Below the pieces are notes generated by a model that had not been told where the DNA came from, ran no database searches, and was given only the letters and a program-made list of their open reading frames with translations. DNA of 56,382 nucleotides from the NCBI GenBank assembly GCA_017470115.1, contig JAFUEZ010000002.1:113665-170046 (forward strand), read 5' to 3'. Position numbers and translations under genes: made by a program. The stretch's first letter is position 1. Each line of letters begins with the position of its first letter. This DNA is from Bacilli bacterium. GTDB lineage: Bacteria; Bacillota_I; Bacilli_A; RFN20; CAG-826. This document shows positions 20,739-53,356 of the stretch, in pieces.

Positions 20739-20824
20739 ACATATTTCTTAACGAGATTATCATCAAATTCAATGAAAAAAAGATAATAAAGTGATAAATT
20801 ATTACAGGTAAGGAGAAAATGTTC

Positions 20825-22417
20825 ATGGAAAAGAAAAGATTATACATAACTACACCTATTTACTATCCAAGCGGAAATCCACATATTGGACATGCTTATT
20901 GCACTACATTAGCAGATGTTATTGCTCGTGATAGACGAATGAGACACTATGAAACATATTTTCTCACTGGTACAGATGAACACGGCCAAAAAATAGAAAA
21001 AAATGCCAGATTAGCAGGGTTATCGCCTTTAGAATACGTTGATAACATGGTTGCTGTATTCAAAAAATTATGGGAAGCATTAAAGATTTCTAATGACGAT
21101 TTCATAAGAACTACACAAGAAAGACATGTTGAATGTGTGCAAAAAGTTTTCTCTAATTTATACAAAAACGATGATATATATTTAGGAAAATATGAGGGTT
21201 GGTATTGTACACCATGTGAATCTTTCTGGACTGAAACCCAAGTGGGGCCAGAACATATTTGTCCTGATTGTGGAAGACCAGTTGAAAAATCAACTGAAGA
21301 ATGTTTCTTCTTCAAGACAAAGAAGTATTTAAATAAGGTTTTATCTTGGTATGAAGATCCAAAATCAGTCTACCCTGAAAGCAGAAAAAATGAGATGGTT
21401 AACACATTTATTAAACCAGGACTTGAAGATTTATGCGTTTCAAGAACCTCATTTAAGTGGGGCGTTCCTTTAAAAGAAGGTGAGAATCATATTTCTTATG
21501 TTTGGTTAGATGCTCTTGTTAATTATATTAGTGCTTTAGGTTATGGAACTGACCATGACGAGCTTTATCAAAAGTTCTGGGCAAGTGAAGAAACTGAAAT
21601 CATCCATCTTATTGGTGCCGATATTACTAGATTCCATACAATTTATTGGCCTGAATTCTTAACAAGTATTGGAGCAAGACTCCCTGATAGAGTTTTTGTT
21701 CATGGTTTACTTATGATGAAAGATGGCAAAATGTCAAAATCTAAAGGAAATGTTGTTTCGCCATACCCATTAATTGAAAGATATGGCGTAGATGCAGTTA
21801 GATATTATCTTGTTAGGGAAGTCGTTTTTGGACAAGATGGACAATTTACTCCAGAGCAATTTGTTGAAAGAATCAATGCCGACCTTGTTAATAATTTAGG
21901 AAACCTTGTTTCAAGAACAGTTTCAATGGTTGATAAATATTTTGGAGGTAAAATCCCAGAATTTAAGAGCGACATCAATGAATTTGACCACGAATTAGAA
22001 ATAATGACTAATAACACGATTAATAGTTATGTTGAAAAGATGAACAATCTTGAAGTCACTGAAGCTTATATTGATGTCATGAATTTGCTTGGAAGAGCTA
22101 ATAAGTACATCGAAGAATCAACTCCATGGGTTTTAGCTAAAGATGAGAATAAAAAAGAGAATCTTGAAAGTGTGATGTCACATCTTGCAAGAGTAATTTT
22201 TGTTGGATCAAAACTTTTAGAACCAATTTTAGTTGATAAGAGCAAAGAAATCTTCATTCAACTTGGCTTAAATGAATTAGAAACTGATTTTGATAATTTG
22301 TCAAACGTCAATTTATTAAATAATCATCAAGTAAACAAAACAGGAGTTCTCTTCCCAAGACTTGATGTAGCAAAAGAAGTTGAATACATCAAAAACTTAA
22401 TGGGTGGAAATAAATAA
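20825..22417 (+). CDS. metG: Methionyl-tRNA synthetase
   Basis: Class I synthetase, about 530 residues. It shows TTPIYYPSGNPHIGHAY (HIGH motif), the zinc knuckle CTPCESFW ... CPDCGRP, and KMSKSKGN (KMSKS loop). The C-terminal tRNA-binding (EMAP-like) extension found in many MetRS is absent, as in other short forms. Start: AAGGAG (20810-20815) is only 3 nt from an ATG at 20819 but 9 nt from the ATG at 20825, so the latter is preferred. A strong terminator follows. Confidence 0.96.
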   Translation: MEKKRLYITTPIYYPSGNPHIGHAYCTTLADVIARDRRMRHYETYFLTGTDEHGQKIEKNARLAGLSPLEYVDNMVAVFKKLWEALKISNDDFIRTTQERHVECVQKVFSNLYKNDDIYLGKYEGWYCTPCESFWTETQVGPEHICPDCGRPVEKSTEECFFFKTKKYLNKVLSWYEDPKSVYPESRKNEMVNTFIKPGLEDLCVSRTSFKWGVPLKEGENHISYVWLDALVNYISALGYGTDHDELYQKFWASEETEIIHLIGADITRFHTIYWPEFLTSIGARLPDRVFVHGLLMMKDGKMSKSKGNVVSPYPLIERYGVDAVRYYLVREVVFGQDGQFTPEQFVERINADLVNNLGNLVSRTVSMVDKYFGGKIPEFKSDINEFDHELEIMTNNTINSYVEKMNNLEVTEAYIDVMNLLGRANKYIEESTPWVLAKDENKKENLESVMSHLARVIFVGSKLLEPILVDKSKEIFIQLGLNELETDFDNLSNVNLLNNHQVNKTGVLFPRLDVAKEVEYIKNLMGGNK

Positions 22418-22423
22418 AAGTTG

Positions 22424-22450
22424 AAGACACGTTCGAACGTGTCTTTTATT
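22424..22450 (+). terminator. Intrinsic terminator of metG
   Basis: The 22-bp perfect palindrome at 22424-22445 (arms AAGACACGTTC and GAACGTGTCTT) is followed by a T-rich tract. Confidence 0.92.
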
Positions 22451-22518
22451 TTAAAGATTAGTTATGAAATGTTTATTAAATATTTCTTTGTTAATCTTTA
22501 AATATTAAAATATGAGAT

Positions 22519-23868
22519 ATGAAAAGCGTTAATGAAATTAGAAAAGTTAAATGTGTAGACTTTACTTTTGATGGTCAAGGTTTGGCAAAAGACGATAACA
22601 ATCGTGTTATTTTTGTTCCATCTTTATTAATCGATGAAGAAGCAGAAGTAGAAATTTTATATAAAAAGAAAGATTTTGATGTTGGAAAAATAAAAAAGAT
22701 TACGAAGTTTTCTGAGTATAGAATCGCTCCAAAATGTCCATGTTCAACATCATGTGGCGGTTGCTCTTTTCAAAATTTAGATTATTCAAAAGAGTTAGAA
22801 TACAAAAAGAAAGTTGCAGTTCAAACTATTTCTAAAATTGCTGGAATCGATGCAAGAAAAGCAAACATATTTGGGATGGAAGAGCCATATTATTATAGAA
22901 ATAAAATTCAAGTACCTTTTGGATACGACAAGCAAAAAAGATTAGTCTATGGATTTTATAAAATTAAAAGTCATGACATTGTTCCTATTACTGAATGCGC
23001 AATTCAATCAAAAGAACATGTTGAGATTTTAAAAGCTATAAAAGATTTAATAATTTCAATGAAGCTTAGAGCATATGATGAAGATACTGGACACGGCACC
23101 TTTAGACATGTCCTTATTAGAGTAGGTAAAGTCACAAAAGAAGTTATGGTTGTTCTCGTTGTTAAAGATGCAAAATTTGCTTCAAGACATAATTTTGTAA
23201 AAGCTTTAATTGAAAAATGTCCAAATATAAAAACCGTGGTTTTGAACGAAAATCCCCGCAAAACTAATGTTATTTTAGGAAATAAAGAAGAAATTTTATA
23301 TGGACCAGGATTCATTTATGACTACTTATTAGGAGTTAAATTTAAAATTTCATCCAAGTCTTTTTATCAAGTAAACCATGATCAATGTGAGAAACTATAT
23401 TCTCTTGCTATCTCAAAAGCTGAGCTAAAAAAGAGCGATGTGATTTTAGATGCATATTGTGGAATTGGAACAATTGGTTTAATTGCATCAAAACACGTTA
23501 AAAGTGTTGATGGAGTTGAAGTTGTTGAAGAAGCAATCGTTGATGCAAAAAACAATGCCAAACTTAACAACATTAAAAATTGTAATTTTGTTTGTAAAGA
23601 TGCAGCCGATTATTTGATTGATAAAAAATTTGATGTTGTGTTTGTTGATCCGCCAAGAAAAGGATTAGATGCTAAATTTTTAAATGGATTACTAAAAAGC
23701 AAACCAGAAAAAATAGTTTATATTTCTTGTGATGTTGGAACCTTAAGCAGAGATTTAAATTTGATGAAAAAGAATTATGAAATTAAATCAATTGATTTTG
23801 TAGACATGTTTCCAAGAACTTATCATGTTGAGACTGTTTGTTTGCTGACACTGAAAAATCAAAAATAA
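22519..23868 (+). CDS. RlmD/TrmA-family RNA uridine C5-methyltransferase
   Basis: SAM-dependent methyltransferase of the RumA/RlmCD group, acting on uridines of 23S rRNA (or tRNA), 449 residues. An N-terminal TRAM domain is followed by iron-sulfur Cys in CPCSTSCGGC (about residues 74-83). The SAM pocket shows LDAYCGIGTIGLIA and FVDPPRKGL. The catalytic Cys lies in YISCDVGTLSRDL; most relatives have SCNP, so the CDV is a variation. The usual VDMFPRTYHVETV end is present. The ATG is 7 nt after TAAAAT (22506-22511) without a ribosome-binding site, so a near-leaderless mRNA is likely. Confidence 0.88.
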   Translation: MKSVNEIRKVKCVDFTFDGQGLAKDDNNRVIFVPSLLIDEEAEVEILYKKKDFDVGKIKKITKFSEYRIAPKCPCSTSCGGCSFQNLDYSKELEYKKKVAVQTISKIAGIDARKANIFGMEEPYYYRNKIQVPFGYDKQKRLVYGFYKIKSHDIVPITECAIQSKEHVEILKAIKDLIISMKLRAYDEDTGHGTFRHVLIRVGKVTKEVMVVLVVKDAKFASRHNFVKALIEKCPNIKTVVLNENPRKTNVILGNKEEILYGPGFIYDYLLGVKFKISSKSFYQVNHDQCEKLYSLAISKAELKKSDVILDAYCGIGTIGLIASKHVKSVDGVEVVEEAIVDAKNNAKLNNIKNCNFVCKDAADYLIDKKFDVVFVDPPRKGLDAKFLNGLLKSKPEKIVYISCDVGTLSRDLNLMKKNYEIKSIDFVDMFPRTYHVETVCLLTLKNQK

Positions 23869-23995: not shown

Positions 23996-24469
23996 ATGAA
24001 TGAATTAAGACAAAAAAGAAAAGAATTAGGTTTAACACAAATTGAAGCTGCTAATGCGTGCGGTGTTTCTCGTCGTACATATCAAACATATGAAGAGGGA
24101 AATCTTTTTAATAACACCTTTGACGAATTAATAAAAAAGCTAAATGAGTTAGGTGTACTTGATAGTACAAATTATGTGACAAATATTCGACATATTAAGA
24201 AAGTATGTGAACAATTATTTAGAGAAAAATATCCAGAAATTAAATGTGCATATTTGTTCGGAAGTTATGCCAGACAAGAAGCAACTAGCAAGAGCGATAT
24301 TGATATTTTGATAGTTTGTCCAGCAATGGGAATGAAGTTTTATGGTATAGCGACTGAACTAGAAGAAAGATTGCATAAGCAAATTGATCTACATACACAC
24401 AGGCAATTAATTACTAATGAAAAATTTTTAGAAGAGATACTAAAGGATGGAATCAAAATATATGGATGA
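23996..24469 (+). CDS. XRE-type helix-turn-helix fused to MNT nucleotidyltransferase domain
   Basis: A 157-residue two-domain protein. Residues 1-55 are a Cro/C1-type helix-turn-helix (LGLTQIEAANACGVSRRTYQ). Residues 65-157 are a minimal nucleotidyltransferase with LFGSYARQEATSKSDIDILI: Gly89-Ser90, Asp101 and Asp103 give an intact GSx10DxD motif. MNT proteins are known as antitoxins that AMPylate HEPN toxins (type VII systems), but no HEPN gene is adjacent; the following DNA is a truncated GNAT gene. It may be an orphan antitoxin or an autoregulated NTase of other use. The stop is TGA. The start has no ribosome-binding site and a -10 box 6 nt away, predicting a leaderless mRNA. Confidence 0.8.
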   Translation: MNELRQKRKELGLTQIEAANACGVSRRTYQTYEEGNLFNNTFDELIKKLNELGVLDSTNYVTNIRHIKKVCEQLFREKYPEIKCAYLFGSYARQEATSKSDIDILIVCPAMGMKFYGIATELEERLHKQIDLHTHRQLITNEKFLEEILKDGIKIYG

Positions 24470-24474
24470 GAAGA

Positions 24475-24834
24475 TATTAAGAAGAAAATAATCCAAAAAC
24501 ATTTAGATTTATGATTACCTTAAAAGATATTGGTGAACTAATTGGTTCTATAGATGTTGTTAGGTATATTGATAATAACCCTGAAATTGGATATTCCTTA
24601 TCAAGAAAGTATTGGAACCAAGGGTTGATGACTGAGGCCTGTAAAGCATTTATTGAATATCTTTTTGATATTGGCTTTACCAAAGTGTTAATTAAAGCGG
24701 TAGTGGAAAATATTGGTAGTAATCGTGTTATAGAAAAATGTGGATTTAAATTCACTCATCAAGAGCATCTTGAACATCAGTCATCATTTAAGCCTAATTC
24801 AGCAACAGTTAATTGTTACGAATTAGTTAAATAA
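24475..24834 (+). pseudogene. Truncated GNAT acetyltransferase (3' part only)
   Basis: The frame encodes the C-terminal 120 residues of a RimJ/RimL-like GNAT, from LEENNPKTFRFMITLKD through NPEIGYSLSRKYWNQGLMTE to FKFTHQEHLEHQSSF. It is closely similar over its full length to residues about 275-393 of the fusion protein at 25955-27136. The N-terminal acetyltransferase strands, the helix-turn-helix and any ribosome-binding site are missing, and the homology begins abruptly 5 nt after the XRE-MNT stop. An ATG at 24511 exists, but a 107-residue product would lack half the fold. This is a relic of duplication or recombination. Confidence 0.8.
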
Positions 24835-24859
24835 CCATATATCCCCATTGTAATGAAGA

Positions 24860-25010
24860 TAAAAACTGGGTGCTACGCATGTGAGAATCGAAATAGCTTC
24901 ATGTGATGGGAAAAAACCTTCTGTTACATCAAATGGTTGTCAGTCCACATATGATCCTTGAGGGTCTGTGGAGTAATAGCCCTTATAGGGTCTAGTCAGT
25001 GCAACTTATT
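24860..25010 (+). ncRNA. Structured non-coding segment; possible insertion-element 3' end or regulatory RNA
   Basis: No open frame fits this GC-richer stretch, but it folds well. TGATG (24904) pairs with CATCA (24927). TCCACA (24944) pairs with TGTGGA (24967) enclosing GATCC-TTGA-GGGTC. CCCT (24980) pairs with AGGG (24987). A row of hairpins downstream of mobile gene debris resembles the right ends and guide RNAs of IS200/IS605-type elements, but no transposase or TnpB piece was seen. It also lies 5' to the promoter of the membrane protein at 25067, so a separate small RNA is possible. The identity is open. Confidence 0.4.
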
Positions 25011-25726: not shown

Positions 25727-25806
25727 TATTTTTTACATTAAAATTGAACTTTTATATATATTTTTAATCATATATAAAGTTTTTCATTCCATAAATTTAC
25801 AGGAGG

Positions 25807-25862
25807 AACAGTCAATTGTTACGAATTGGTTAAATAATCATATATTCATATTGTAGTGAAGG
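25807..25862 (+). repeat. Remnant of a third GNAT gene end
   Basis: Bases 25807-25841 are identical to 27106-27140, the last codons, stop and first downstream bases of the fusion gene, and nearly identical to 24803-24838 of the truncated copy. The next 20 bp (CATATTCATATTGTAGTGAA) also resemble the flank after the truncated copy (24836-24856). The rest of this 288-bp intergenic stretch (25667-25954) holds a terminator and AT-rich DNA. Confidence 0.8.
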
Positions 25863-25919
25863 CACATGTTGAAACTATAGTAGGACTATATCAGAAATAA
25901 AAGATAATGTTTAATATAA

Positions 25920-25954
25920 TAGACATTAACTTAACTTTCTTGTATACTATAGAC
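25920..25954 (+). promoter_or_regulatory. Promoter for a leaderless mRNA of the XRE-GNAT gene
   Basis: TAGACA (25920-25925), 17 bp, TATACT (25943-25948), 6 nt, ATG (25955). There is no ribosome-binding site. This is the best example in the window of the leaderless layout with a recognisable -35 box. Confidence 0.65.
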
Positions 25955-27136
25955 ATGGAAAGCAAATTTGAAATTGGCCAAAAACTTAAAAACAAAAGAT
26001 TAGAACTTAATTTGAGAATGGATGATGTCGCTAAAGAAGTAGGTGTTACTAGATCTACTTTATGGGCTATTGAAAACGGAAGCGGCAATTACACTATTGA
26101 CACTCTTCTTAGATTAGTAAGCTTTTTAAACATGTCTATTGATATCGGTGCCCAAAAACAAGGAACTAGAAAAAGAGCAACTAGAACAAATAGTGCCTTA
26201 GACAAAAAGATAAATCGATTCATTGTTATGTGTGTTGAACAATATGCATCTAGCGTTAATCAAAGTAGTGGAACCATTTATAACGAACTTAATAAAGCCG
26301 GCATTATTGATGAATTAAAAGAGGATTATGAAGATATGCACGGTATGTCTACATATTCGATAAATGAGTATATCGGAAAAAGACTTGACGCGGATGTCTC
26401 ACAAGAACCAACAAACGATAATCACATCTTATCTAAAACAATTCTTATATCTCAGACCATTGAACTTATAGCGAAAAAATATAAGCTGAGCATCGAAGAA
26501 TCTAGAAACAGATTTTATCAGTCAGACGTAATTGAAATGTTGGATGATGATGAAACAGGCCTTTATGGTGAATCAGCGTTATATCTTTTGTCACTTTATG
26601 AGAATTATTTTAAAAATAAATGTATCGAAACAGAGAGACTTTTGCTCAGAAAACCAAGAATTGAAGATGCCAAACCAATGTTTGACAATTGGGCAAACGA
26701 TCCTGAAGTTACTAAATATTTAACTTGGAATCCTCACGAGAATATAGAAGTGACTAAAACGATCATTACCTGTTGGCTTGAAGAAGAAAAAGACTCGAAA
26801 ACCATTAGATTCATTATTACTTTAAAAGATGGTGGCGAACCCATTGGTTCTATTGATGTAGTTAACTATATTGATGATAATCCCGAGATTGGATATTGTT
26901 TATCAAAAAAATATTGGAATCAAGGTTTAATGACTGAAGCATGTAAAGCTTTTGTTAAATATCTTTTCAACAAAGGCTTTAATAAGGTCTTAATTAAAGC
27001 AGTAGTGGAAAATATCGGTAGTAATCGTGTAATTGAAAAATGTGGATTTAAATTCACCCATCAAGAACATCTTAAACATCAGTCATCTTTTAAGCTCAAT
27101 CCAGTAACAGTCAATTGTTACGAATTGGTTAAATAA
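25955..27136 (+). CDS. XRE helix-turn-helix / DUF3791-like / GNAT fusion protein
   Basis: A 393-residue three-part protein. Residues 1-65 are an XRE DNA-binding domain (MDDVAKEVGVTRSTLWAIEN). Residues 75-215 hold two consecutive helical segments that look DUF3791-like (INRFIVMCVEQYASSV ... and TIELIAKKYKLSIEESRN ... ETGLYGESALYLLSLYE); this family name is from memory and uncertain. Residues 220-393 are a complete RimJ/RimL-type GNAT (TERLLLRKPRIEDAKPMF to KCGFKF). DUF3791-type segments and XRE-GNAT pairs occur in toxin-antitoxin-like loci, so a self-regulated acetyltransferase toxin is one reading. The start at 25955 is set by the -10 box 6 nt upstream. Confidence 0.8.
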   Translation: MESKFEIGQKLKNKRLELNLRMDDVAKEVGVTRSTLWAIENGSGNYTIDTLLRLVSFLNMSIDIGAQKQGTRKRATRTNSALDKKINRFIVMCVEQYASSVNQSSGTIYNELNKAGIIDELKEDYEDMHGMSTYSINEYIGKRLDADVSQEPTNDNHILSKTILISQTIELIAKKYKLSIEESRNRFYQSDVIEMLDDDETGLYGESALYLLSLYENYFKNKCIETERLLLRKPRIEDAKPMFDNWANDPEVTKYLTWNPHENIEVTKTIITCWLEEEKDSKTIRFIITLKDGGEPIGSIDVVNYIDDNPEIGYCLSKKYWNQGLMTEACKAFVKYLFNKGFNKVLIKAVVENIGSNRVIEKCGFKFTHQEHLKHQSSFKLNPVTVNCYELVK

Positions 27137-28832: not shown

Positions 28833-29780
28833 ATGGAAAATACATTTATCCAAATTCAAGAATTATTAAATAGACGTGCGGAATTACAAACTCGTTTAAA
28901 TCTTTTGCCATACGATGGAACTCCAGAAATAAAAACTATATCAGGAAAGAAATACCTATATGTCCGTAAAAGAGAGTTAGATAAAGTTAAATCTACTTAT
29001 GTTGGGGAATATAGCGAAGAACTATACAGCACTTTATTAAGAAACAATGTTGAAACTAAATCTCTTCGCAAGGAAATTAGGCAGCTTGAAAAACAACTAG
29101 CGTTACTTGGTTATAATGAAGGTGAAATATCAGATAGAGTTGCTCTTAATCTAGATTTTGCTCGCGCTAATATGAAGAAAATTATTTATGATCAAGCTGT
29201 GTTAGAAGGGGTTGGAACCACCTTTCCTGATATAGAAGCAATTATTGATAATGGAATTGTTAAAAATGTAAAAGTAGAAGATGTTCAAAAAATCATTAAT
29301 TTAAAACACGCATGGCAATTTATCTTAGATAAAGACGTCATTCAAGCACCAAGCGATTATTATTTGGCCTCCTATATTGCTAGATTAGTTAATGAAGGAT
29401 TATTAGTTATTCAAAACGGAGGAAGAATTAGAAGTGTGCCAGTTATTATTGGCGGTTCTACCTATATTCCTCTAATTCCATTCGAAGACCAAGTTAAACA
29501 AGATTTATATAATGTTTTAAATAATGAAAAGGGAATTGATCTCGCTATTGATTTAGCTTTATATGTCATGAAAAAGCAATTGTTCTTAGATGGAAACAAA
29601 AGAACTGCAATTATATTTGCCAACCATTATTTGATTTCACACGCACTAGGTTTAATTGTGGTGCCCGCAGAACAAGTTAAAGAATTTAAAAAAGTCCTTG
29701 TGTCATATTATGAAGATGAGTCAAAGAAAGGCGATATTGTAGATTTCTTAAAAGAAAAGTGTTGGATTAAAATGAAGTGA
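28833..29780 (+). CDS. Fic-domain protein with His-less catalytic motif
   Basis: A 315-residue protein. Residues 1-110 are helical and charged (LRKEIRQLEKQLALLGY suggests a coiled coil), and the rest is a Fic fold. Fic enzymes transfer AMP or similar groups using HPFxxGNGR or HPFxDGNKR. Here the motif reads KKQLFLDGNKRTA, so the catalytic His is Gln249 and Pro is Leu, while the phosphate-binding DGNKR is intact. The protein may bind nucleotide without classic AMPylation, or belong to a Q-type subfamily. It has its own promoter with a dyad and sits beside an AbiE pair. Confidence 0.8.
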   Translation: MENTFIQIQELLNRRAELQTRLNLLPYDGTPEIKTISGKKYLYVRKRELDKVKSTYVGEYSEELYSTLLRNNVETKSLRKEIRQLEKQLALLGYNEGEISDRVALNLDFARANMKKIIYDQAVLEGVGTTFPDIEAIIDNGIVKNVKVEDVQKIINLKHAWQFILDKDVIQAPSDYYLASYIARLVNEGLLVIQNGGRIRSVPVIIGGSTYIPLIPFEDQVKQDLYNVLNNEKGIDLAIDLALYVMKKQLFLDGNKRTAIIFANHYLISHALGLIVVPAEQVKEFKKVLVSYYEDESKKGDIVDFLKEKCWIKMK

Positions 29781-29793
29781 TTTATCAAAACAA

Positions 29794-29831
29794 ATAATAG
29801 AGTATTTTCTTATTAGATTTAAGTAATTAGG
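29794..29831 (+). repeat. Direct repeat A flanking the AbiE module
   Basis: About 38 bp, beginning ATAATAGAGTATTTTCTT, located 13 bp after the fic stop. It matches repeat B at 31417-31455 at about 35 positions with one 1-nt gap. Confidence 0.75.
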
Positions 29832-29842
29832 TATGATTATTT

Positions 29843-29894
29843 TGCTTAAAATGCTTAAAAATAGTGTTGAATTCTCTACTAAATCCAATATAAT
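29843..29894 (+). promoter_or_regulatory. abiE promoter with tandem 9-bp repeats
   Basis: TTGAAT (29867-29872), 16 bp, TATAAT (29889-29894). Just upstream are two abutting copies of TGCTTAAAA (29843-29851, 29852-29860). AbiEi proteins are known to repress their own promoters through repeated sites, so these repeats are candidate binding sites. Confidence 0.55.
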
Positions 29895-29915
29895 TGTATT
29901 TATAGGAGCAAAAAC

Positions 29916-30509
29916 ATGATTTTAACCACATCAATATTAAAGTCAAATTATTCTAAGTATGTTAATCCTTTAGATAAGATTAAAAGAGATGTAGACGAAA
30001 GAAAATTATTTAGATTAACAAGAGGGCTATATGAAACAAATAGCGACACCAACCCTATCTTTTTAGCTGGCTCTATTCTTTCACCTTCATATATTAGTTT
30101 TGAATTCGCTCTTTCTTTTTATGGACTTATACCTGAAAAAGTGGTGGCGATTACTTCGGCATCTCTAGAGATAAGAAAAAATAAGACTTTTGTTAATATC
30201 TTTGGTAGGTTTGAATATACGGATATCCCATCTAGGGCTTTTTCTTGTGGCTTATCTTTAATTGAAAACGATGGCTATTTCGCTAAGATCGCTTGCAAAG
30301 AGAAGGCGTTGTGTGACTCTTTATATAAATGGAGGGTCACTAAAAGCATAAAGGAATTAAAAAAATTATTGTTTGAGGATAAAAGAATTGATGAAGAGGA
30401 ATTTGCTTCTTTAGATTTTAACGAATTAATAAGGCTTGCTTCTTTATATAATAGAAGCAACCTTGAACTATTAATAAAATTAATAAGAAAGGAATACTTA
30501 CATGAATAG
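29916..30509 (+). CDS. abiEi: AbiEi-family antitoxin and transcriptional regulator
   Basis: A 197-residue protein of the type IV toxin-antitoxin regulator family. The N terminus (KLFRLTRGLYETN) matches the winged-helix end of AbiEi, followed by SPSYISFEFALSFYGLIPE and AFSCGLSLIENDGYFAKIACKEKALCDSL, landmarks of the C-terminal antitoxin domain. In known systems AbiEi neutralises AbiEii without binding it and represses the operon. TAGGAG precedes the ATG. It overlaps the toxin gene by 8 nt. Confidence 0.88.
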   Translation: MILTTSILKSNYSKYVNPLDKIKRDVDERKLFRLTRGLYETNSDTNPIFLAGSILSPSYISFEFALSFYGLIPEKVVAITSASLEIRKNKTFVNIFGRFEYTDIPSRAFSCGLSLIENDGYFAKIACKEKALCDSLYKWRVTKSIKELKKLLFEDKRIDEEEFASLDFNELIRLASLYNRSNLELLIKLIRKEYLHE

Positions 30510-31359
30510 TATTTTAGAAGCAATGTTAAGCAAATATAATCCCAAGAACAACATTGATAAAGAAAACGCAATAAAAGAAATAGTTCAAGAAGTGGTTCTA
30601 GCAGGTCTTTCTCGTGGTGGTTTTTTTAACAAGGCAGCATTTTATGGTGGAACTTGCTTAAGGATATTTCATGGCTTAAATAGATTTAGCGAAGATTTAG
30701 ATTTTGCTTTAATTAATAAAGAGACTTTTAATATCGAAGACTATATTCCATACGTTAAAAAGGAGCTTCTTTCCTGTGGTTTAGATATGGACGTTTCTTT
30801 TAAAGACAAAAGCAAAGATAAAGAAATCCAAACCGCTTTTGTTAAAGGGAACACATTGTTGTTAATGATGAACTTTTTTCCAAGCTCTAATGAATCAAAA
30901 CAAGTAGTAGGAAACCAAAAGATTAAAATTAAATTTGAAATAGACACCGATAATCCTAGCGGCGGCACTACCGAAATAAAATACCAATTGTTACCTTCTC
31001 CATATGAAATAAGAATTTTTGATGAAAAGACTTTATTCGCAGGTAAAATCCATGCGATCATCTGTAGAAATTATAAAAACCATGTCAAAGGTAGAGATTA
31101 TTATGATTATCTTTTCTACTTAGGAAAAGGCACAAAAATCAATCTTAAATATTTAGAAAACAAATTAAAGAAAACAGGAAAAATTTCTATAGACACAGAT
31201 TTAACTTTAGATATGGTCAAAGATTTATTAAAAGAAAGGTTCTTAAATGTAGACTTCAATTCTGCGAAAGAAGATGTTGCTAATTTTATTAGTAATAAAG
31301 ATTCATTAAAGCTTTGGTCTAGTGATCTATTTATATCAACCTTAACAATGATTTCCTAA
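30502..31359 (+). CDS. abiEii: AbiEii-family nucleotidyltransferase toxin
   Basis: A 285-residue toxin of the DUF1814 nucleotidyltransferase family. FYGGTCLRIFHGLNRFSEDL gives the GGT motif, with Ser63, Asp65 and Asp67 as the NTase site, and VKGRDYYDYLFYLGKG is the second conserved block. Relatives stop growth on phage infection; homologues such as MenT transfer nucleotides to tRNA ends. All visible catalytic residues are intact, so the pair should be functional. It overlaps the antitoxin by 8 nt. Confidence 0.9.
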   Translation: MNSILEAMLSKYNPKNNIDKENAIKEIVQEVVLAGLSRGGFFNKAAFYGGTCLRIFHGLNRFSEDLDFALINKETFNIEDYIPYVKKELLSCGLDMDVSFKDKSKDKEIQTAFVKGNTLLLMMNFFPSSNESKQVVGNQKIKIKFEIDTDNPSGGTTEIKYQLLPSPYEIRIFDEKTLFAGKIHAIICRNYKNHVKGRDYYDYLFYLGKGTKINLKYLENKLKKTGKISIDTDLTLDMVKDLLKERFLNVDFNSAKEDVANFISNKDSLKLWSSDLFISTLTMIS

Positions 31360-31416
31360 TCTGAAACATATACTTTATCAATTTTTGTTAAGGTAAAAAT
31401 AAGCAAAAACAGTTAG

Positions 31417-31455
31417 ATAATAGACTATTTCCTTCATTAGATTTAAATAATTAAG
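31417..31455 (+). repeat. Direct repeat B flanking the AbiE module
   Basis: Begins ATAATAGACTATTTCCTT, 57 bp after the abiEii stop and 24 bp before HD-GYP homology resumes. Partner of repeat A at 29794. Confidence 0.75.
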
Positions 31456-31479
31456 TTTATCTAGTGTATATTTATTAAA

Positions 31480-31743
31480 AGATGGGACGGAAAGGGTTAT
31501 CCTAACGGTTTAAAAGGTGATGATATACCTTTAGAAGCGCTTATTATGGCAATCGCCGATTTTTATGATGCTTTGGTGAGTAAAAGAGTGTATAAAGATG
31601 AATTTTCTTTTGATGATGCAAACCGCATTATCATGGAAAACATGGGTAAACAATTTGATCCAAGTTTAGAAAAACATTTTGTTAGAGCAAGACCTAAAAT
31701 AGAAAAATACTATCTTGATATTAGAAATTGTAGCAACACTTAA
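31480..31743 (+). pseudogene. HD-GYP phosphodiesterase remnant (C-terminal part)
   Basis: In frame from 31480 the DNA encodes RWDGKGYPNGLKGDDIPLEA followed by IMAIADFYDALVSKR and the helices that end an HD-GYP domain. The upstream half, with the HD residues and the start, is missing; an in-frame stop at 31462 and direct repeat B lie immediately before. HD-GYP proteins degrade cyclic di-GMP, fitting the EAL protein and kinase that follow. The break coincides with the AbiE insertion, which probably replaced the 5' half. An internal ATG at 31546 would give only 65 residues. Confidence 0.82.
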
Positions 31744-31850
31744 TATGTGAATAAACCACAACTCGATGTTGAAAGGTACCTGAAACCCTAGACATTAAGA
31801 AAGGTGTAGACATCAAATTTAATTCTTTTTTATTTGTGTCTCTTTTGAGA

Positions 31851-31962: not shown

Positions 31963-34494
31963 ATGAAAAAAATTTGGGTAGTAATTGTTAACGTATTTAT
32001 CATGATTTCGATGGTGGTTTTCGTTTTTATTTACGCTTCTACTGAAACAAAAGCGATCACTCAAAGCCAAATCGAAAATTTTGAAAACTCGACCGTTACA
32101 ATGGAACAAGTCACCGAAAATTACCTTAAAGGTGAGCAACGTATTTGTGATGTTTGGGCACATTATATCAACAGTGAAGACATGACTATGGAAGAAGCAA
32201 CTTCTTTTATTCGTGTCTCTCATGTTTTAAAAAATGCATCGGCACATTTGCTTTATTTAGACACACAAACTGGAAAATCTACAAAACCTAAAACCGGGAC
32301 TACCGATGAATATGATGTTTCATATAGCAATCTTGGACTTTTAAATGATTTGAGTTGGGTTCACGAAATCGGAACTTCAATTAATGTTTCACGAGCTTAT
32401 ACAAATCCAATTAATGGTGAACAATCGATTGCTTTTTGTAATTACATTACCTTAAAAGAAAGTGGAGAGGCTAAAGATTCAATTTTGCTTCGTGTCCTCC
32501 CTGTTGCTGAACTCAAAGATAACTGGGTATTCCTTAAAGAAAAATTTGAAAATGCCGAACTTTCAATTATTGATGCTAATGGAAACTATATTATTAAAGG
32601 CAATTCTTTTAAAAATTCAAGTTTCTTTGAGTTTTATAAATCATATAACAACATCGATTCAACAAAAGCCCAAGTTCTCTTTAATAAAATTACTTCAGAA
32701 ACCGGATCTTTAACGATGTATAATTCTCGCCATGAAGAATGCATCGTTGCCTATACTCCATTTAATGCAACAGGTGGTTGGGCACTTTTGAGTTTAATGC
32801 CAAAGAAAGATTTAATTGTTGATACTGAAAACTGGTTTTTAATCGGAGTTATTACATCGGGACTTATTATCTTATTTATTTTCGATCTTATCGTGATGTT
32901 AACGTTTAACAAAAAACTTCAACTTACTGCAAAAGAAGCAGATTCAGCAAATAAAGCAAAAACCATCTTCCTTTCAACAATGTCACACGATATTCGTACT
33001 CCAATGAATGCAATTATCGGTTTAACAACAATTACAGAAAAGAACCTTGAAAATGAAAAAATAGTTGCTGAAAATTTACGTAAAATAAATTTAGCTAGCA
33101 ATCATTTATTAACTTTAATTAATGATATTTTGGATATTTCAAAAGTCGAAAGTGGAAAATTAAATTTTGTTCCACAATCATTCTCAATCGTTAAAACGGT
33201 TGAAAATCTCATGAATTTATCTCAACCAATGATAAAAGAGAAGAACATTGACTTTAGTTTCCACATTTCTCGAATGGATAAAGAATATCTTTATGCTGAT
33301 CAACTTAGATTAAATCAAATTTATATCAATATTCTTTCAAACGCTATTAAATATACTGAACCAGGCGGCAAAGTTAGTGTAGATATGAAAGAAGAAGAGA
33401 GTGAAAAAGAGGGCTGCGTACGTTTAACTTATAAAGTTTCTGATACTGGTATAGGAATGAGCCCAGAATTTATGGCCAATATGTATCAACCATTTTCACG
33501 TCAAACTGATAGTCGTATAAATAGTATTCAAGGTACTGGATTAGGTCTTGCAATTACAAAACAAATGGTTGATTTGATGGGTGGGACCATTGAATGCGAA
33601 AGCGAACTAGGCAAAGGCACCACATTTACTGTAATTTTAGATATTCCAATTGCTGAGCACCAAAGATCAGAAATGAAGCTTAATTCAATGGATGTTTTAA
33701 TTGTTGATGATGATGAAGTCCTTTTAGAAACTGCTGTTGATACTTTAGAATCTTTAGGTTTAAAAGCTGAAAAAGCAGGAAGCGGATTAGAAGCTCTTGG
33801 AATGATAAAACATAGAGAAGGTACTGGGAAAAATTATGACATCGTTATCATAGATTTAAAAATGCCAGATGTTGATGGTATTGAAACAATTAGACGTATT
33901 CGTTCTGAAGTTAAAACAAATGTCCCTATCTTATTGATTAGTGCTTATTCTTGGGATGATGTTGAAGAAAAAGCAAAAGAAGCTGGAGTTAATGGCTTCC
34001 TTAGTAAACCACTTTTCCGTTCAACTCTTTATGATAAAATTAGCGAAATTGTTGGAAGCGAGGTTACATCAACTGAACCAGAAAGCGATTATTCAGACAT
34101 TGAAGGGATGCATGTCCTTGTTGCAGAAGATAACGACATTAACTGGGAAATCATTTCTGCTTTGTTATCAATGTATGGAATTACTTCAGAGAGAGCTGAA
34201 AACGGCCGCATCTGTTTAGAAAAAATAAAAGAAGCTAAAAAAGACACTTATTCACTTATTTTCATGGATATTCAAATGCCTGAAATGAATGGATTAGATG
34301 CCACTAAAGCAATTCGTGCTTTAGAAGATCCTTGGGCTTCTAAAATTCCAATTGTTGCAATGACTGCTGATGCTTTTTCTGAAAACATTGAAGAATGCTT
34401 AAATGCTGGTATGAACGGTCATATTGCAAAGCCAATAGACATCAAACTTGTTATTAAAGTAATTCGAAGAATTAAGGAGGAATCTAAAAAATGA
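31963..34494 (+). CDS. Hybrid sensor histidine kinase with two receiver domains
   Basis: An 843-residue membrane kinase. TM1 is residues 7-26, an extracellular Cache-like sensor spans about 30-280, and TM2 is about 288-310. HisKA carries the phospho-acceptor His342 in FLSTMSHDIRTPMNAI, and the ATPase shows GTGLGLAI. Receiver 1 has Asp631 (IIDLKMPDVDG) and receiver 2 has Asp769 (FMDIQMPEMNG). There is no Hpt domain in this chain; one is encoded separately at 37520, which completes a His-Asp-His-Asp relay. The stop overlaps the next gene by 4 nt (ATGA), coupling it to the solute-binding lipoprotein. Confidence 0.93.
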   Translation: MKKIWVVIVNVFIMISMVVFVFIYASTETKAITQSQIENFENSTVTMEQVTENYLKGEQRICDVWAHYINSEDMTMEEATSFIRVSHVLKNASAHLLYLDTQTGKSTKPKTGTTDEYDVSYSNLGLLNDLSWVHEIGTSINVSRAYTNPINGEQSIAFCNYITLKESGEAKDSILLRVLPVAELKDNWVFLKEKFENAELSIIDANGNYIIKGNSFKNSSFFEFYKSYNNIDSTKAQVLFNKITSETGSLTMYNSRHEECIVAYTPFNATGGWALLSLMPKKDLIVDTENWFLIGVITSGLIILFIFDLIVMLTFNKKLQLTAKEADSANKAKTIFLSTMSHDIRTPMNAIIGLTTITEKNLENEKIVAENLRKINLASNHLLTLINDILDISKVESGKLNFVPQSFSIVKTVENLMNLSQPMIKEKNIDFSFHISRMDKEYLYADQLRLNQIYINILSNAIKYTEPGGKVSVDMKEEESEKEGCVRLTYKVSDTGIGMSPEFMANMYQPFSRQTDSRINSIQGTGLGLAITKQMVDLMGGTIECESELGKGTTFTVILDIPIAEHQRSEMKLNSMDVLIVDDDEVLLETAVDTLESLGLKAEKAGSGLEALGMIKHREGTGKNYDIVIIDLKMPDVDGIETIRRIRSEVKTNVPILLISAYSWDDVEEKAKEAGVNGFLSKPLFRSTLYDKISEIVGSEVTSTEPESDYSDIEGMHVLVAEDNDINWEIISALLSMYGITSERAENGRICLEKIKEAKKDTYSLIFMDIQMPEMNGLDATKAIRALEDPWASKIPIVAMTADAFSENIEECLNAGMNGHIAKPIDIKLVIKVIRRIKEESKK

Positions 34495-35783
34495 GGAAAT
34501 TATTTCGCACTGCTTTAAGCATCATCTCGATATCTTTTTTGGTATCTTGTAACGGCAACACACCTGGAGAAACATCTGATGAATTTAAACCTTCATTAAA
34601 TACAGATACTGAATGTGAAATTACTATTGTTGGTTCGTATGATAATTTTGAAGCACTTGAAGCTGAATTTGATAGATTCAATGTTTATTATCCAAACGTT
34701 AGTTTAACTTATGAAAAAATTGATGATTATAACAACGTTATCGGAAGTGTTTTGGAAAGAGAAGAGAAACCAAATATTTTCTTTTCATACACATGGATGA
34801 TGGGCAATAGCAAGTACGATTCAGTAATCGATCACATGGAAAACCTTTCAGATTCCTCATTAAAATTAAATTTAGATTGTATCAGACCAGGCTTACTTAG
34901 CCATGATTCAAATAATAACGTATTGATGGTTCCAGTATTTTCAAGAACTTATGGAACTTTAGTTAATGAAAACTTATTTAAAAAAGAAAACTTGAAAGTA
35001 CCTGAAACATGGACCGAATTATTAAATGTTTGTAAATCATTTAGTGATAAAGGATATAAGAGTCCGATGATGGGATATACTGCAAAATCTTCAAGTTATT
35101 TGATGAATACTATTGCTTATCCTTCCTTTGTTGCTGAACTTGCAAACAATCCTACTGCACTTAATCTTGCAAATAATCTTGATCCATCAGCTGGACAATA
35201 TTTACGTAGTTCGTTAGAGAAAGTTAAAGCGCTTGTCGATAATGGTGCGATTGATGTCGAAGAATGTGACAAAATTGCAGACAACTATAATAAAGTCATT
35301 CTTCGTTTCTTTGAAGGCGATGTTCCTATGATGGTTTGTGCCGGAGACACTGTTTCTGGCACCAAAAAACGCGAATCACAATCAGAAGCTTTTGTTGCTT
35401 CACCATTTGATTACTCATTCTATCCAATCCCTTCAACAGAAAAAGGTGGTTATTTTATTGATAGTCCATCAATTGAATTTTCAATTAATAAAAGATGTGA
35501 TGATTTAGAAATGACTCGTGAATTCATGAGATTTTTAGTAAGTACTAAAGAATTAAATAACATGGCATCACTTAAACGACTAGTTACTCCAACAAAAGAG
35601 ATGTCGTTTGACTCAGTTTATGCTCCATTTGGAAAAGTTCCACAAGAACGTACATTCTCACCTGAAGTTATTGGAATTAAGGATCCACTTACCGCTCAAG
35701 TAAGAATTGCAGCATTGAAAGTTGGAAGAAAAACTTTAACAGTTGATGAAGCTGTTGCACAATATGGAGCACTTAGAGAATAG
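34491..35783 (+). CDS. Family 1 solute-binding lipoprotein without its own transporter
   Basis: A 430-residue lipoprotein with lipobox FLVSC (Cys20) and the fold of sugar-type extracellular binding proteins (EITIVGSYDNFEALEAEFDRF, then KKENLKVPETWTELLNVCKS). No ABC permease or ATPase gene of the matching type is anywhere in the window. It is translationally coupled to the hybrid kinase and precedes the response-regulator gene, so it more likely feeds ligand information to the kinase sensor than supplies a transporter. AAGGAGG lies before the start. Confidence 0.88.
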   Translation: MRKLFRTALSIISISFLVSCNGNTPGETSDEFKPSLNTDTECEITIVGSYDNFEALEAEFDRFNVYYPNVSLTYEKIDDYNNVIGSVLEREEKPNIFFSYTWMMGNSKYDSVIDHMENLSDSSLKLNLDCIRPGLLSHDSNNNVLMVPVFSRTYGTLVNENLFKKENLKVPETWTELLNVCKSFSDKGYKSPMMGYTAKSSSYLMNTIAYPSFVAELANNPTALNLANNLDPSAGQYLRSSLEKVKALVDNGAIDVEECDKIADNYNKVILRFFEGDVPMMVCAGDTVSGTKKRESQSEAFVASPFDYSFYPIPSTEKGGYFIDSPSIEFSINKRCDDLEMTREFMRFLVSTKELNNMASLKRLVTPTKEMSFDSVYAPFGKVPQERTFSPEVIGIKDPLTAQVRIAALKVGRKTLTVDEAVAQYGALRE

Positions 35784-35831
35784 TTGATTATTATCGTTAA
35801 AATTCTAATTATTTTAGAAAGGAAATAAATT

Positions 35832-37520
35832 ATGAAAGGAAAAAGACATTCTTTGTTTGAAATTAAAAAGACAATTTTAGTTGTTGATGATGAACCAATT
35901 AATAGAGAGATTTTATCAGCAATACTTTCTAATGACTTCAATGTGCTTAAAGCAGAAGATGGAAAAGAGGCAATCGATATCTTATTAAAAGAAGAACAAA
36001 AAATTGATTTGGTTCTTTTAGATGTTTTTATGCCTTATGATGGTCGAGAAGTTTTAAAAGATAGACAACAAAATCGAAAGCTCAAAAAAATTCCTTTCAT
36101 TGTTTGTACTAGTGATAAAAATATTGAAGAAGAATGTTTTCATTTAGGTGTTAATGATTTTGTTAAAAAACCATATGAAAATCCAGATATTATAGTTGCA
36201 AGAATCAAGAGAATGATTGAACTTTATGAAGATAGATCGATTCTTAAAGAAGTTGAAAGAGAAAAATTAACTAACTTTTATAATCGTGAATTCTTTAAAA
36301 AATATTCTCAACAATTTGACTCTTTATATCCTGATTTAAAAAAGGATATGATAGCAATTTCAGTCAATAGATTTAGATTAATTAATGAGCTTTATGGTCG
36401 GGCTTTTGGCGACAAAGTCCTTCTTGCAATCACAGAAACTCTAAATAAATGTTTAGAAAATTGTAGAGGAATCGTTGGAAAAGATGGTGGAAGCACCTTT
36501 ATAATTTATGCTGAACATCACGATAGTTATGAAGAATTATTTAATAAATTAGCTTCATCGATTAATAATGTTGTTGGGGATATTGGTATCTCAATTAGGC
36601 TTGGCGTTTATCCTTTTGTTGATCAAAGTATGGATAAAGAAATTGTCATTGAAAGAACCGAATCAACAGCCGATAGTTTATCTAACGATTATACGAAAAA
36701 TATCGCAATTTATAATGAAGAAAAGCAAGCAAAAACACTTCATATAGAAGAACTAATTGATTCTTTCCAACAAGCCTTAGAAGAAGAACAATTTAAATTA
36801 TTTTTCCAACCAAAATATAAGATTAAAGGTGATAAACCAGAATTTGTTAGTGCAGAAGTATTGATTAGATGGATTTCTCCAAAATTTGGTTTTGTTAATC
36901 CTGGAGAATTTATTAATTTATTTGAAGAAAATGGTCTTATTGGTCAACTAGATTCATATATTTTAGAAAAAGCTGCTAAATATATGGGTGAATGGAAGAA
37001 AAAATACGGCTTATTAATTCCTTTATCGGTGAATTTATCACGTGTTGATATTTATAGACCAACACTTGTAGAAGATATTATTAGATTTGTTGATTCTAAT
37101 GACATTCCTCATAGCGCATATAATCTTGAAATAACTGAATCAGCTTATGTTGAAGATGCAAAAGAAGTAATTTCAGTTGTTAATAAAATAAGAAATAGTG
37201 GTTTCAAGGTTGAAATTGATGATTTTGGAAGTGGATACTCCTCATTTAATACATTAATTGATCTTCCTTTTGATGTTTTAAAGATTGATATGCAAATTAT
37301 TAAGAGCATGGATAGAAGTGAAAAAGTTAAAGAAATTATTAAAATGATTATCAATTTATCCAAAACAATGGAAGCAGTTACTGTTGCTGAAGGTGTCGAA
37401 ACAGCTGATCATTATGCCTTCTTAAAAGAAAATGGTTGTGATGTCGTTCAAGGCTATTATTTAAGTAGACCTTTATCTCTAGCAGATTTTGAAAAATTAA
37501 TTGAAAAGGATTTAATGTAA
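35832..37520 (+). CDS. Response regulator: receiver, degenerate GGDEF, active-looking EAL
   Basis: A 562-residue protein. The receiver domain (residues 12-130) has phospho-Asp64 in LVLLDVFMP. The GGDEF-like domain (about 145-295) has GGSTF in place of GGDEF, so it should not make cyclic di-GMP. The EAL domain (about 310-560) reads AEVLIRW with the key Glu, NLSR, EITES, IDDFGSGYSS, KID and VAEGVET, so all metal and catalytic residues seem present and it should hydrolyse cyclic di-GMP. It probably receives phosphate from the kinase two genes upstream. GAAAGGA precedes the ATG. Confidence 0.92.
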   Translation: MKGKRHSLFEIKKTILVVDDEPINREILSAILSNDFNVLKAEDGKEAIDILLKEEQKIDLVLLDVFMPYDGREVLKDRQQNRKLKKIPFIVCTSDKNIEEECFHLGVNDFVKKPYENPDIIVARIKRMIELYEDRSILKEVEREKLTNFYNREFFKKYSQQFDSLYPDLKKDMIAISVNRFRLINELYGRAFGDKVLLAITETLNKCLENCRGIVGKDGGSTFIIYAEHHDSYEELFNKLASSINNVVGDIGISIRLGVYPFVDQSMDKEIVIERTESTADSLSNDYTKNIAIYNEEKQAKTLHIEELIDSFQQALEEEQFKLFFQPKYKIKGDKPEFVSAEVLIRWISPKFGFVNPGEFINLFEENGLIGQLDSYILEKAAKYMGEWKKKYGLLIPLSVNLSRVDIYRPTLVEDIIRFVDSNDIPHSAYNLEITESAYVEDAKEVISVVNKIRNSGFKVEIDDFGSGYSSFNTLIDLPFDVLKIDMQIIKSMDRSEKVKEIIKMIINLSKTMEAVTVAEGVETADHYAFLKENGCDVVQGYYLSRPLSLADFEKLIEKDLM

Positions 37521-37870
37521 TGAACATTAAGAAATTTTACGAAGACACAAATAGCAATTATCAAGGCGCTTTATCGATAATGATGAATGATTTATTAATT
37601 GAAAGAATGATCAAAAAATTCATGGAAAGCAATTCATATCATGCAATTATTGAAGCTTACGAAGCAAATAATATTAAAGAAGTTTTTGCTTTATCACATT
37701 CATTTAAAGGCGTTACGGGAAATCTCTCTTTAACCAATTTATTTAAACTTGCATCTGAATTAACTGAGGCAACCAGGAATAAAGAATCTGCAGATATTAA
37801 AGATCTAATTGAACAATTAAAAGCTGAATATAAAGTTGTTGTAGATGCATTCAATGCATTGAATAATTGA
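37520..37870 (+). CDS. Hpt phosphotransfer protein
   Basis: A 116-residue, all-helical protein with the Hpt signature LSHSFKGVTGNL, phospho-acceptor His60. The start overlaps the stop of the EAL gene (TAATG). It supplies the missing step between the receiver of the hybrid kinase and the receiver of the EAL protein. No other candidate partner is visible. Confidence 0.87.
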   Translation: MNIKKFYEDTNSNYQGALSIMMNDLLIERMIKKFMESNSYHAIIEAYEANNIKEVFALSHSFKGVTGNLSLTNLFKLASELTEATRNKESADIKDLIEQLKAEYKVVVDAFNALNN

Positions 37871-48450: not shown

Positions 48451-48480
48451 TAATATTTAAAAACTAAATTAATTAAAATT

Positions 48481-49170
48481 ATGAAAATCGAAGAAGAGTT
48501 AATGTTCGGATATAAAGCTAAAGAAGATTCTTTAATTAAGTATGGATTTAAAAAAGAACAAAACTCTTTTTTCTATATTACACCAATAATGAATGGTGAG
48601 TTTGAAGCTAAAATCACTATTTCAAAAAATGTTTTGAGTGCAAAAATTATTGATAAATCTTTTAATGAAGAATACTCCTTATTTAATAACGAACGTGCAT
48701 ATGGTGAATTCATTGGAAAATTAAGGGAAGAATATAAAAACATTTTGTTAGACATTAGAGAAAAATGTTTTATGAGAGCTTTATTTGCTGATCCTCAAGC
48801 AGAAAGAGTTGCTAAATATGTTAAAGAAATGTATGGTGACGACCCTGAGTTTCCTTGGAAAAGATATCCTCAATTTGGAATTTTTAGAAATAGATTAAAT
48901 AGACGTTGGTATGGATGCATAATGAACGTCGAAGATAATAAGCTTGCGCCAAACACGAAAGGTAGATTTGTAATAAACGTAAAAGCAGATAAATCAATTT
49001 TTAATGCCTTGCTTCTTGAAGAAAATATATTTCCTGGACGGCATATGAATAAAGAATCGTGGATTTCAGTTTCTTTATCGGATTATTTACCTGATGAATA
49101 TGTATTTTCACTTATTGATATGTCTTATGAACAAGTTAATGGCTCAAAGAAATCAAAAGTGAAGAAATAA
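48481..49170 (+). CDS. MmcQ/YjbR family protein
   Basis: A 229-residue protein. The C-terminal half (FPWKRYPQFGIFRNRLNRRW, then GRHMNKESWISVSL and a YEQV end) is the MmcQ/YjbR fold, a DNA-binding-like or regulatory family of unknown role. About 90 extra residues at the N terminus form a small alpha/beta domain. No ribosome-binding site is visible before the ATG. AT-rich sequence with weak -10 likeness lies immediately ahead. Confidence 0.82.
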   Translation: MKIEEELMFGYKAKEDSLIKYGFKKEQNSFFYITPIMNGEFEAKITISKNVLSAKIIDKSFNEEYSLFNNERAYGEFIGKLREEYKNILLDIREKCFMRALFADPQAERVAKYVKEMYGDDPEFPWKRYPQFGIFRNRLNRRWYGCIMNVEDNKLAPNTKGRFVINVKADKSIFNALLLEENIFPGRHMNKESWISVSLSDYLPDEYVFSLIDMSYEQVNGSKKSKVKK

Positions 49171-49183
49171 TTTTATATCCTTT

Positions 49184-49378
49184 TATAATATAGACATGAA
49201 GTATAAGTGTAACAAATGTAATAACGAATTTGATGGAACCTTACCAATTCATCCTCATCCAGGAGGTTTAGGTGGTAGATTATCTATGTATGGTTGTCCA
49301 GTTTGTGCAAAAATGGCAGCCACGCCTATAATTTGCCCAAAATGCCTGTCAGCCGATTTAACACCAATTCTTAAATAA
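49184..49378 (+). CDS. Small zinc-ribbon protein, leaderless
   Basis: The coding part is 49196-49378 (60 residues); the interval given includes the TATAAT at 49184-49189, which stands 6 nt before the ATG. Three CxxC pairs (CNKCNNEF, CPVCAKM, CPKCLSA) and a HPHPGGLGGRL loop suggest a zinc-binding protein of the rubredoxin/zinc-ribbon kind. The role is unknown. There is no ribosome-binding site. A terminator follows. Confidence 0.7.
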   Translation, partial: YNIDMKYKCNKCNNEFDGTLPIHPHPGGLGGRLSMYGCPVCAKMAATPIICPKCLSADLTPILK

Positions 49379-49387
49379 TTAAAATTT

Positions 49388-49414
49388 ACTTTAGCCTAGT
49401 GCTAAAGTTTTTTA
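49388..49414 (+). terminator. Intrinsic terminator after the zinc-ribbon gene
   Basis: ACTTTAGC (49388-49395) and GCTAAAGT (49401-49408) form an 8-bp perfect stem, followed by T6. Confidence 0.88.
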
Positions 49415-49449
49415 TTGTTGCACATAAACAAAATAAAATTATATATTTA

Positions 49450-49466
49450 TGATAGTTAAACTATCA
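49450..49466 (+). promoter_or_regulatory. Palindromic operator before the TetR gene
   Basis: TGATAGTT-A-AACTATCA is a perfect 8-1-8 palindrome, 34 bp before the ATG. A half-site CTATCA recurs near 49481. It is typical of TetR autoregulation. Confidence 0.75.
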
Positions 49467-49500
49467 TTTTGAGAATTTATCTATCAAAGGAACAATAATT

Positions 49501-50106
49501 ATGGGATTTCTTGATTTAAAAAGGACTTACATTGTAGATGTGGCAACTAGCCTTTTTTTAAGCGAAGGTATTGATAATGTCACAATCAAAGAGATAGCAG
49601 AAGCTGCAGATGTAGGTGAGATGACAATTTATCGTTATTTTGGGAAAAAGCAAAACATAGTTGCTGAGGCAGTTTTGAGCCTACAAGAAATAGTTTCAAA
49701 CGACTACTTTGCTTTAAAAGAAGCAAAGACAGGTTATGAAAAACTTAAAGTGTTTTATTTTTCCTATTTAGAAGTTTTTAAAAACAAACCTGAATATTTT
49801 AGATTCATTAGAGAATTTGATCTATTAATGATGGGTGAAGACGAAAATGTTTTGAAACAATATGAAAAAGGAATAGAAGGATTTAAGAATGCTTTTATTG
49901 ACGCCTATAATCTTGGCATTAAAGATAAAACCGTAAAAACCATTGATAATATCGAACTATTTTATTTCACGACAACTCATGCATTAATCGAATTATGCAA
50001 AAAGCTTTCTTATAAAAAAGGAGTGCTTGCTCAAGATAAAAAAATTAAAAAGACCGATGAGATTGGTTGCTTAATAAATACCATTTTGGTTTCGTTAAAG
50101 GCATAG
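49501..50106 (+). CDS. TetR family regulator of the galactosidase operon
   Basis: A 201-residue TetR protein; the HTH is TIKEIAEAADVGEMTIYRYF (about residues 26-45), followed by a helical ligand domain. It has a perfect operator upstream and lies 10 nt before the GH36 gene. It is likely a sugar- or glycan-responsive repressor of the operon, but the effector is unknown. AAAGGAA precedes the start. Confidence 0.88.
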   Translation: MGFLDLKRTYIVDVATSLFLSEGIDNVTIKEIAEAADVGEMTIYRYFGKKQNIVAEAVLSLQEIVSNDYFALKEAKTGYEKLKVFYFSYLEVFKNKPEYFRFIREFDLLMMGEDENVLKQYEKGIEGFKNAFIDAYNLGIKDKTVKTIDNIELFYFTTTHALIELCKKLSYKKGVLAQDKKIKKTDEIGCLINTILVSLKA

Positions 50107-50116
50107 AGGAGAAAAT

Positions 50117-53302: not shown

Positions 53303-53356
53303 TAAAAAAATGTTTGTTTTGCAATGTTTTTCATTAAAATTCAATTGTATACAATT
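53303..53356 (+). promoter_or_regulatory. Dispersed element copy 9 (- orientation) plus palindrome AATTGTATACAATT
   Basis: Copy 9 has TTGTTTTGCAATG (53314-53326). AATTGTATACAATT at 53343-53356 is a perfect 14-bp palindrome. The pair of signals repeats the arrangement before the glycosyltransferase at 45125. A TATAAT (about 53394) lies downstream, before GGAGGAG of the TldD-like gene. Confidence 0.65.

Follow-up and report, generated by a model that had tools for sequence, protein, structure and literature searches.

How a bacterial gene comes to survive only as its last few dozen codons, directly behind a complete-looking toxin-antitoxin pair, is the question raised by a locus in the 1.41-Mb genome of a small-genome Bacilli bacterium that is available as a draft of 23 contigs. 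Within the stretch of 56,382 nucleotides that we analyzed (hereafter, the window), an AbiE pair bracketed by direct repeats is followed by the headless end of an HD-GYP gene and then by a sensor-kinase operon. We favor, with a probability of roughly 0.7, a reading in which the interval between the core genes rlmD and tldD is a hotspot where exchanges of accessory modules added Fic and AbiE genes on the left and the kinase operon on the right. An amino-acid-permease::HD-GYP fusion gene would have been reduced to 291 bases in the course of these exchanges.

A doubly truncated remnant of a permease::HD-GYP fusion gene

The remnant and its intact relatives are located as follows:

31478-31768, forward strand: remnant of an amino-acid-permease::HD-GYP fusion gene with its final 88 codons and 3' UTR (DNA homology to intact genes)
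L015:2799-5039: intact permease::HD-GYP fusion; also in G133 (C53+C58), G055 (C31), G085 (C56), G031, G034, G044, G146 and G147

A reading of the window from sequence only had noted that C-terminal HD-GYP coding sequence resumes without its front half beyond the right repeat, and DNA homology to intact genes, which sets in at position 31478 and thus 22 bases past that repeat, bears this out. The homologous segment of 291 bases extends beyond the stop codon, and the HD-GYP frame, which opens at 31471 and ends with the stop codon at 31741-31743, covers no more than positions 107-170 in the 170-position profile PF13487 (HD_5). The HD metal-binding part is therefore absent from the scrap, while the GYP motif is kept (RWDGKGYPNGLKG). 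Since homology begins at the HHE/RWDGKGYP junction and stops in the loop of a terminator hairpin that lies 3' of the gene in G055, a genome of another genus, the scrap is truncated on both sides. Like HD-GYP phosphodiesterases (PF13487), it shows the C-terminal third of the domain with a retained GYP motif but, unlike them, it has no HD catalytic part, permease part or start and is not a functional member of the family. The missing front part was found nowhere else in the genome, in which the two other HD-GYP genes both look whole.

Whole relatives of the scrap encode proteins of ca. 746 amino acids in which an amino-acid permease (PF13520) is fused to HD-GYP (PF13487), and a membrane HD-GYP gene precedes the fusion gene wherever upstream sequence is present. 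The locus brings to light a conserved amino-acid-permease::HD-GYP fusion gene that spreads between genera, and we found no description of such a fusion in the literature searched. Its alleles in G055, G133 and G085, which represent three genera, differ by only 1 to 5 bases per 240, which indicates recent transfer. In G055 (L139), the contig end that carries the fusion gene has ca. 35% G+C and the remainder with ribosomal protein genes more than 50%, a step that reflects either recent import or a join made in binning or assembly.

The scrap is closest in DNA to the G055 allele (92.8% identity) and to those of G133 and G085 (91-92%), all from other genera, compared to 84.3% for G016 of the same genus, and it may for this reason descend from an imported allele. 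It differs from G055 by four amino acids over 80 codons, and three of these changes affect residues that are invariant in all aligned intact genes. Most nucleotide differences fall on third positions and hence predate the break, a pattern that fits a recently dead copy.

A sister species carries the whole gene, probably in the same interval

The closest relative in our comparison set, G016, is a sister species of the same genus (rlmD 90% identical in protein and 83% in DNA) with a fragmented assembly that is 74% complete. Collinearity of its contig C2 with the window extends to the end of rlmD, where the contig also ends, contig C8 (29.2 kb) carries the equivalent of window positions 48479-53153 in the same order and orientation with 53273-53383 at its very end, and contig C4 begins at window position 53607. 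Given the collinearity of C8 and C4 with the right side and the end of C2 at rlmD, we place C8 inside the rlmD-tldD interval, which measures 29.7 kb in the window as compared to 29.2 kb for C8; we infer the C2-C8 join, as the contigs share no overlap. An unrelated location of the fusion gene of G016 had been considered and was overturned by the collinearity of C8 and C4 with the right side of the interval.

Near the left end of C8, a whole HD-GYP gene is followed by a permease::HD-GYP gene on the same strand as the scrap in the window, and AbiEii was not found in this 74% complete assembly. G016 thus is the kind of relative that the sequence-only reading had proposed to look for, in that its HD-GYP gene is intact and AbiE is absent from the same rlmD-tldD interval as reconstructed from collinear contigs, and its whole, same-strand copy supports the proposal that an HD-GYP gene in this interval was broken during an exchange of accessory modules. 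The fusion gene is also found downstream of rlmD in G031, G034 and G044 (another genus), though in reverse orientation. Among the genomes available, none lacks AbiE while carrying one copy of the repeat.

The mechanism proposed alongside, insertion of AbiE into the HD-GYP gene between direct repeats, is not shown by these data: no 5' part lies to the left of AbiE, ca. 2 kb of the gene are missing and its right side has been cut as well. A simple insertion is unsupported because it would leave the front half of the gene beyond AbiE, where none is present.

A sensor-kinase operon common to other genera lies on the right

31963-37870, forward strand: operon of histidine kinase, solute-binding lipoprotein, RR-GGDEF-EAL and Hpt-like genes (profile search, genome comparison)

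The kinase operon is frequent in other genera, where its solute-binding protein finds relatives of up to 71% identity, but within the genus the 25 other genomes yield only weak partial matches. Unmatched sequence separates it from the cut right end of the scrap. In 15 other genomes, 300 bases or more are assembled in front of the kinase, and none of these has an HD-GYP or AbiE gene there; we therefore rejected the idea that HD-GYP is a normal member of this operon. Of the earlier suggestion that a cyclic di-GMP phosphodiesterase was broken next to a signaling operon, the broken HD-GYP gene stands, but the gene was a permease::HD-GYP fusion and, to judge from these genomes (0/15), lay outside the kinase operon.

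These data also bear on the best of the alternatives, namely that the gene was never whole at this site and that the scrap of a G055/G133/G085-like allele arrived from another genus as a passenger that came along with either the kinase operon or the AbiE unit. The greater DNA similarity of the scrap to G055 than to G016 (92.8% versus 84.3%), which continues through the 3' UTR, and the likewise frequent occurrence of the kinase operon in other genera speak for such a transfer. However, an HD-GYP scrap precedes the kinase operon in none of the 15 genomes with upstream sequence, no AbiE relative is followed by one, and in G016 the gene probably lies in this interval too, with unchanged orientation, so that we regard the passenger scenario as improbable, if less so than the other rivals.

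As a separate observation, arrays of peptides of ca. 97 amino acids that share a single conserved leader of the double-glycine type (MKKELLKGLTEEQIAKVKACK...AVSGG) but vary in their cysteine-rich, zinc-ribbon-like cores were seen in L051, L066, L063, L060 and L214, either near the kinase/solute-binding operon or downstream of rlmD.

The AbiE pair appears complete and lies between direct repeats

29794-29832, forward strand: direct repeat, left copy (repeat alignment, genome pattern search)
29855-29915, forward strand: abiE promoter region conserved among AbiE relatives, with the core AAATCCAAT-ATA-ATTGTATTT; the left repeat lies outside
29916-30509, forward strand: abiEi antitoxin gene (PADLOC AbiEi, E=3.3e-61, residues 3-192)
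30502-31359, forward strand: abiEii toxin (nucleotidyltransferase) gene (PF08843, E=8.7e-27; PADLOC, E=2e-100)
31417-31456, forward strand: direct repeat, right copy (repeat alignment, genome pattern search)

The two abiE genes form an intact-looking bicistronic pair with an overlap of 8 bases. AbiEii carries all four of its motifs (I-IV: G49-G50, R61-D65-D67, KIHAIICR and RDYYD), which in the forms GG, RxxxDhD, K-x6-R and +DxxD have been shown to be necessary for toxicity (PMC3985639). AbiEi had no match in Pfam and scored 16.8 bits against the NCBIfam model TAA_AbiEi with its cut-off of 150. The promoter core AAATCCAAT-ATA-ATTGTATTT is found in most relatives, though in an inverted-repeat test the window sequence taken alone was equaled by 37 of 100 shuffles. 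We predict from its motifs that AbiE is a standard type IV toxin-antitoxin pair, in which AbiEi would act as repressor of the abiE operon and counter AbiEii, a predicted GTP-binding nucleotidyltransferase that might cause growth arrest and possibly abortive infection. It resembles the described AbiE type IV systems (PMC3985639) in the overlapping order of AbiEi and AbiEii, the four nucleotidyltransferase motifs and the conserved promoter region; no structural difference is apparent, and only the paired direct repeats are peculiar to the window copy. The DNA identity of the pair to its relatives is only 63-71% and points to no immediate source. For AbiEii, phages yielded one weak match and plasmids only matches below 60% identity.

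That repeats bracket abiEi-abiEii, as had been read from the sequence, is real, but their description as near-identical over 38 bp was slightly generous: the copies of 39 and 40 bases agree at 35 of 40 positions with one gap (87.5%). Their alignment score of 51 exceeds all shuffled controls, which peaked at 34 for the two intergenic stretches (2000 shuffles) and at 38 for 2-kb flanks (200 shuffles), and the repeat core occurs exactly twice in the 1.41-Mb genome even with up to 3 mismatches allowed. DNA conservation with AbiE relatives from other genomes spans 29855-31345 and ends before either repeat. By sequence comparison, the repeat is absent from intact HD-GYP genes and loci and from the surroundings of AbiE relatives, none of which has a repeat pair of its own among the 27 with both flanks present (0/27); a regular feature of AbiE modules was therefore rejected. 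We also discarded a dispersed, family-wide element, since the 18 near matches outside the genome are background when compared to 29 for a reversed control pattern (224 genomes), as well as XerC/D (dif) sites, which the repeats match no better than shuffles do, and an abiE promoter or operator, given positions outside the conserved promoter block.

The repeats are central to a second alternative, in which AbiE was inserted straight into the HD-GYP gene, with the repeats as duplicated target or attachment sites, before the 5' part of the gene was lost. The repeats, absent elsewhere in the genome, do lie on either side of the conserved AbiE unit (29855-31345), and the scrap begins only 22 bases after the right copy. 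Against this, no 5' HD-GYP or permease sequence lies to the left of AbiE, the repeat is found in no intact HD-GYP gene and beside no AbiE relative, no recombinase was recognized among the nearby scanned proteins and there is no dif-type match; we consider direct insertion unlikely. Because they are missing from HD-GYP loci and AbiE relatives alike, the repeats cannot be called the insertion footprint, though they may still mark the arrival of AbiE; none of the data link them to the HD-GYP break. In a highly speculative view, toxin-antitoxin units in this family are moved by a cassette system not described so far, for which the repeats serve as recombination sites and the rlmD-tldD interval as a place of entry; this, if true, would account for the recurrent headless 3' scraps beside toxin-antitoxin genes.

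Probable turnover of toxin-antitoxin modules downstream of rlmD

20819-23868, forward strand: core anchor left of the site, metG (20819-22417) and rlmD (22519-23868) (NCBIfam/Pfam; collinear with G016 C2)
23996-24469, forward strand: MNT/HTH antitoxin-type nucleotidyltransferase, HepT partner missing (G094 and G144 keep HepT right after it)
24479-24861, forward strand: 3' scrap of a GNAT acetyltransferase gene, 86% DNA identity to G094 2381-2764; 5' part and HepT missing
25804-25877, forward strand: second GNAT 3' scrap, ca. 70 bases (DNA comparison)
25907-27136, forward strand: chimeric ORF of HTH-DUF3791, a small DUF3791-type domain and GNAT, DUF3990 gene missing (DNA comparison with G034 and G086)
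28833-29780, forward strand: Fic-family protein (PF02661; up to 88% DNA identity to other genera)

The favored reading of module exchange in a hotspot draws on further remnants in the same interval. Downstream of rlmD, G094 has an intact MNT gene and then a HepT-GNAT ORF. MNT ends at position 1883 there and at 24469 in the window, where the final 383 bases of the GNAT region come directly after it; ca. 497 bases including HepT have been lost compared to G094. The chimeric ORF at 25907-27136 is 90% identical in DNA to G034, which downstream of rlmD has a DUF3990 gene between HTH-DUF3791 and the small DUF3791-type domain; these 537 bases are replaced by ca. 70 in the window. Its DNA is also 87% identical over 1316 bases to G086, where the region comprises two ORFs. 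The window thus holds two antitoxin-type genes that have no toxin, MNT without HepT and HTH-DUF3791 without DUF3990, the latter fused in frame to GNAT. The Fic protein and its relatives share the motif QxxxDGNKR, in which the usual catalytic histidine is absent.

Accessory content downstream of rlmD varies among 36 relatives, with the right border of the interval compared in G016 only, and MNT, GNAT, DUF3791, kinase or Fic modules of the window recur downstream of rlmD in G094, G086, G034, G144, G047 and G072. The GNAT, DUF3791, Fic and HD-GYP-scrap sequences share 82-93% DNA identity with the closest copies from other genera but rlmD of the window only ca. 65% with its counterparts in G094 and G086, which indicates that the modules crossed genera recently. 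No recombinase was recognized among the scanned proteins of the island (some small ORFs were left out), nor did a search for known attachment sites give a dif-type match. A false join in the 23-contig draft seems a very poor explanation for the locus, as the left and right flanks are 80-83% identical to a single sister species, base composition is even across the region and several independent scraps follow the same pattern.

Accessory modules would thus be gained, partly deleted and replaced in the rlmD-tldD interval, with the permease::HD-GYP gene as a recurrent resident. Successive exchanges would have placed Fic and AbiE on the left and the sensor-kinase operon on the right, and would have deleted the permease::HD-GYP gene save for 291 bases that remain as a dead scrap. 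We infer the order of these events, and likewise a left break made either by the arrival of AbiE or by a deletion like that which left the first GNAT scrap.

Hotspots of horizontal transfer without visible mobile elements are well described (PMC5635113), and the locus shares with them variable content beside conserved core genes, fast turnover and the lack of a recognized recombinase; unlike in those, the interval can be traced across genera of one family and its deletion scraps are readable. Mycoplasmas carry AbiE and Fic modules and orphan antitoxins in variable regions (PMC8562856). The parallels extend to small genomes, signs of horizontal transfer and direct repeats near one toxin-antitoxin region, though the repeats lie at another region there, whereas in the window they bracket AbiE itself within the rlmD-tldD interval. 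The case is one of ordinary, well-documented gene turnover and a new instance of a known phenomenon. Its value lies in a readable fossil record, from different genera of a small-genome family, of toxin-antitoxin modules that arrive in, lose their toxins in and leave one interval, and several of the steps have a comparator.

Finally, a dispersed intergenic repeat was observed at the following positions:

8174, 9691, 13700, 37892, 39677, 40718, 44990, 48412, 53305 and 56107, both orientations: dispersed intergenic repeat

It comprises ca. 25 to 49 bases around GCCTGCAAAAC / GTTTTGCAGGGTTTTT and resembles a shared terminator or small repeat element.
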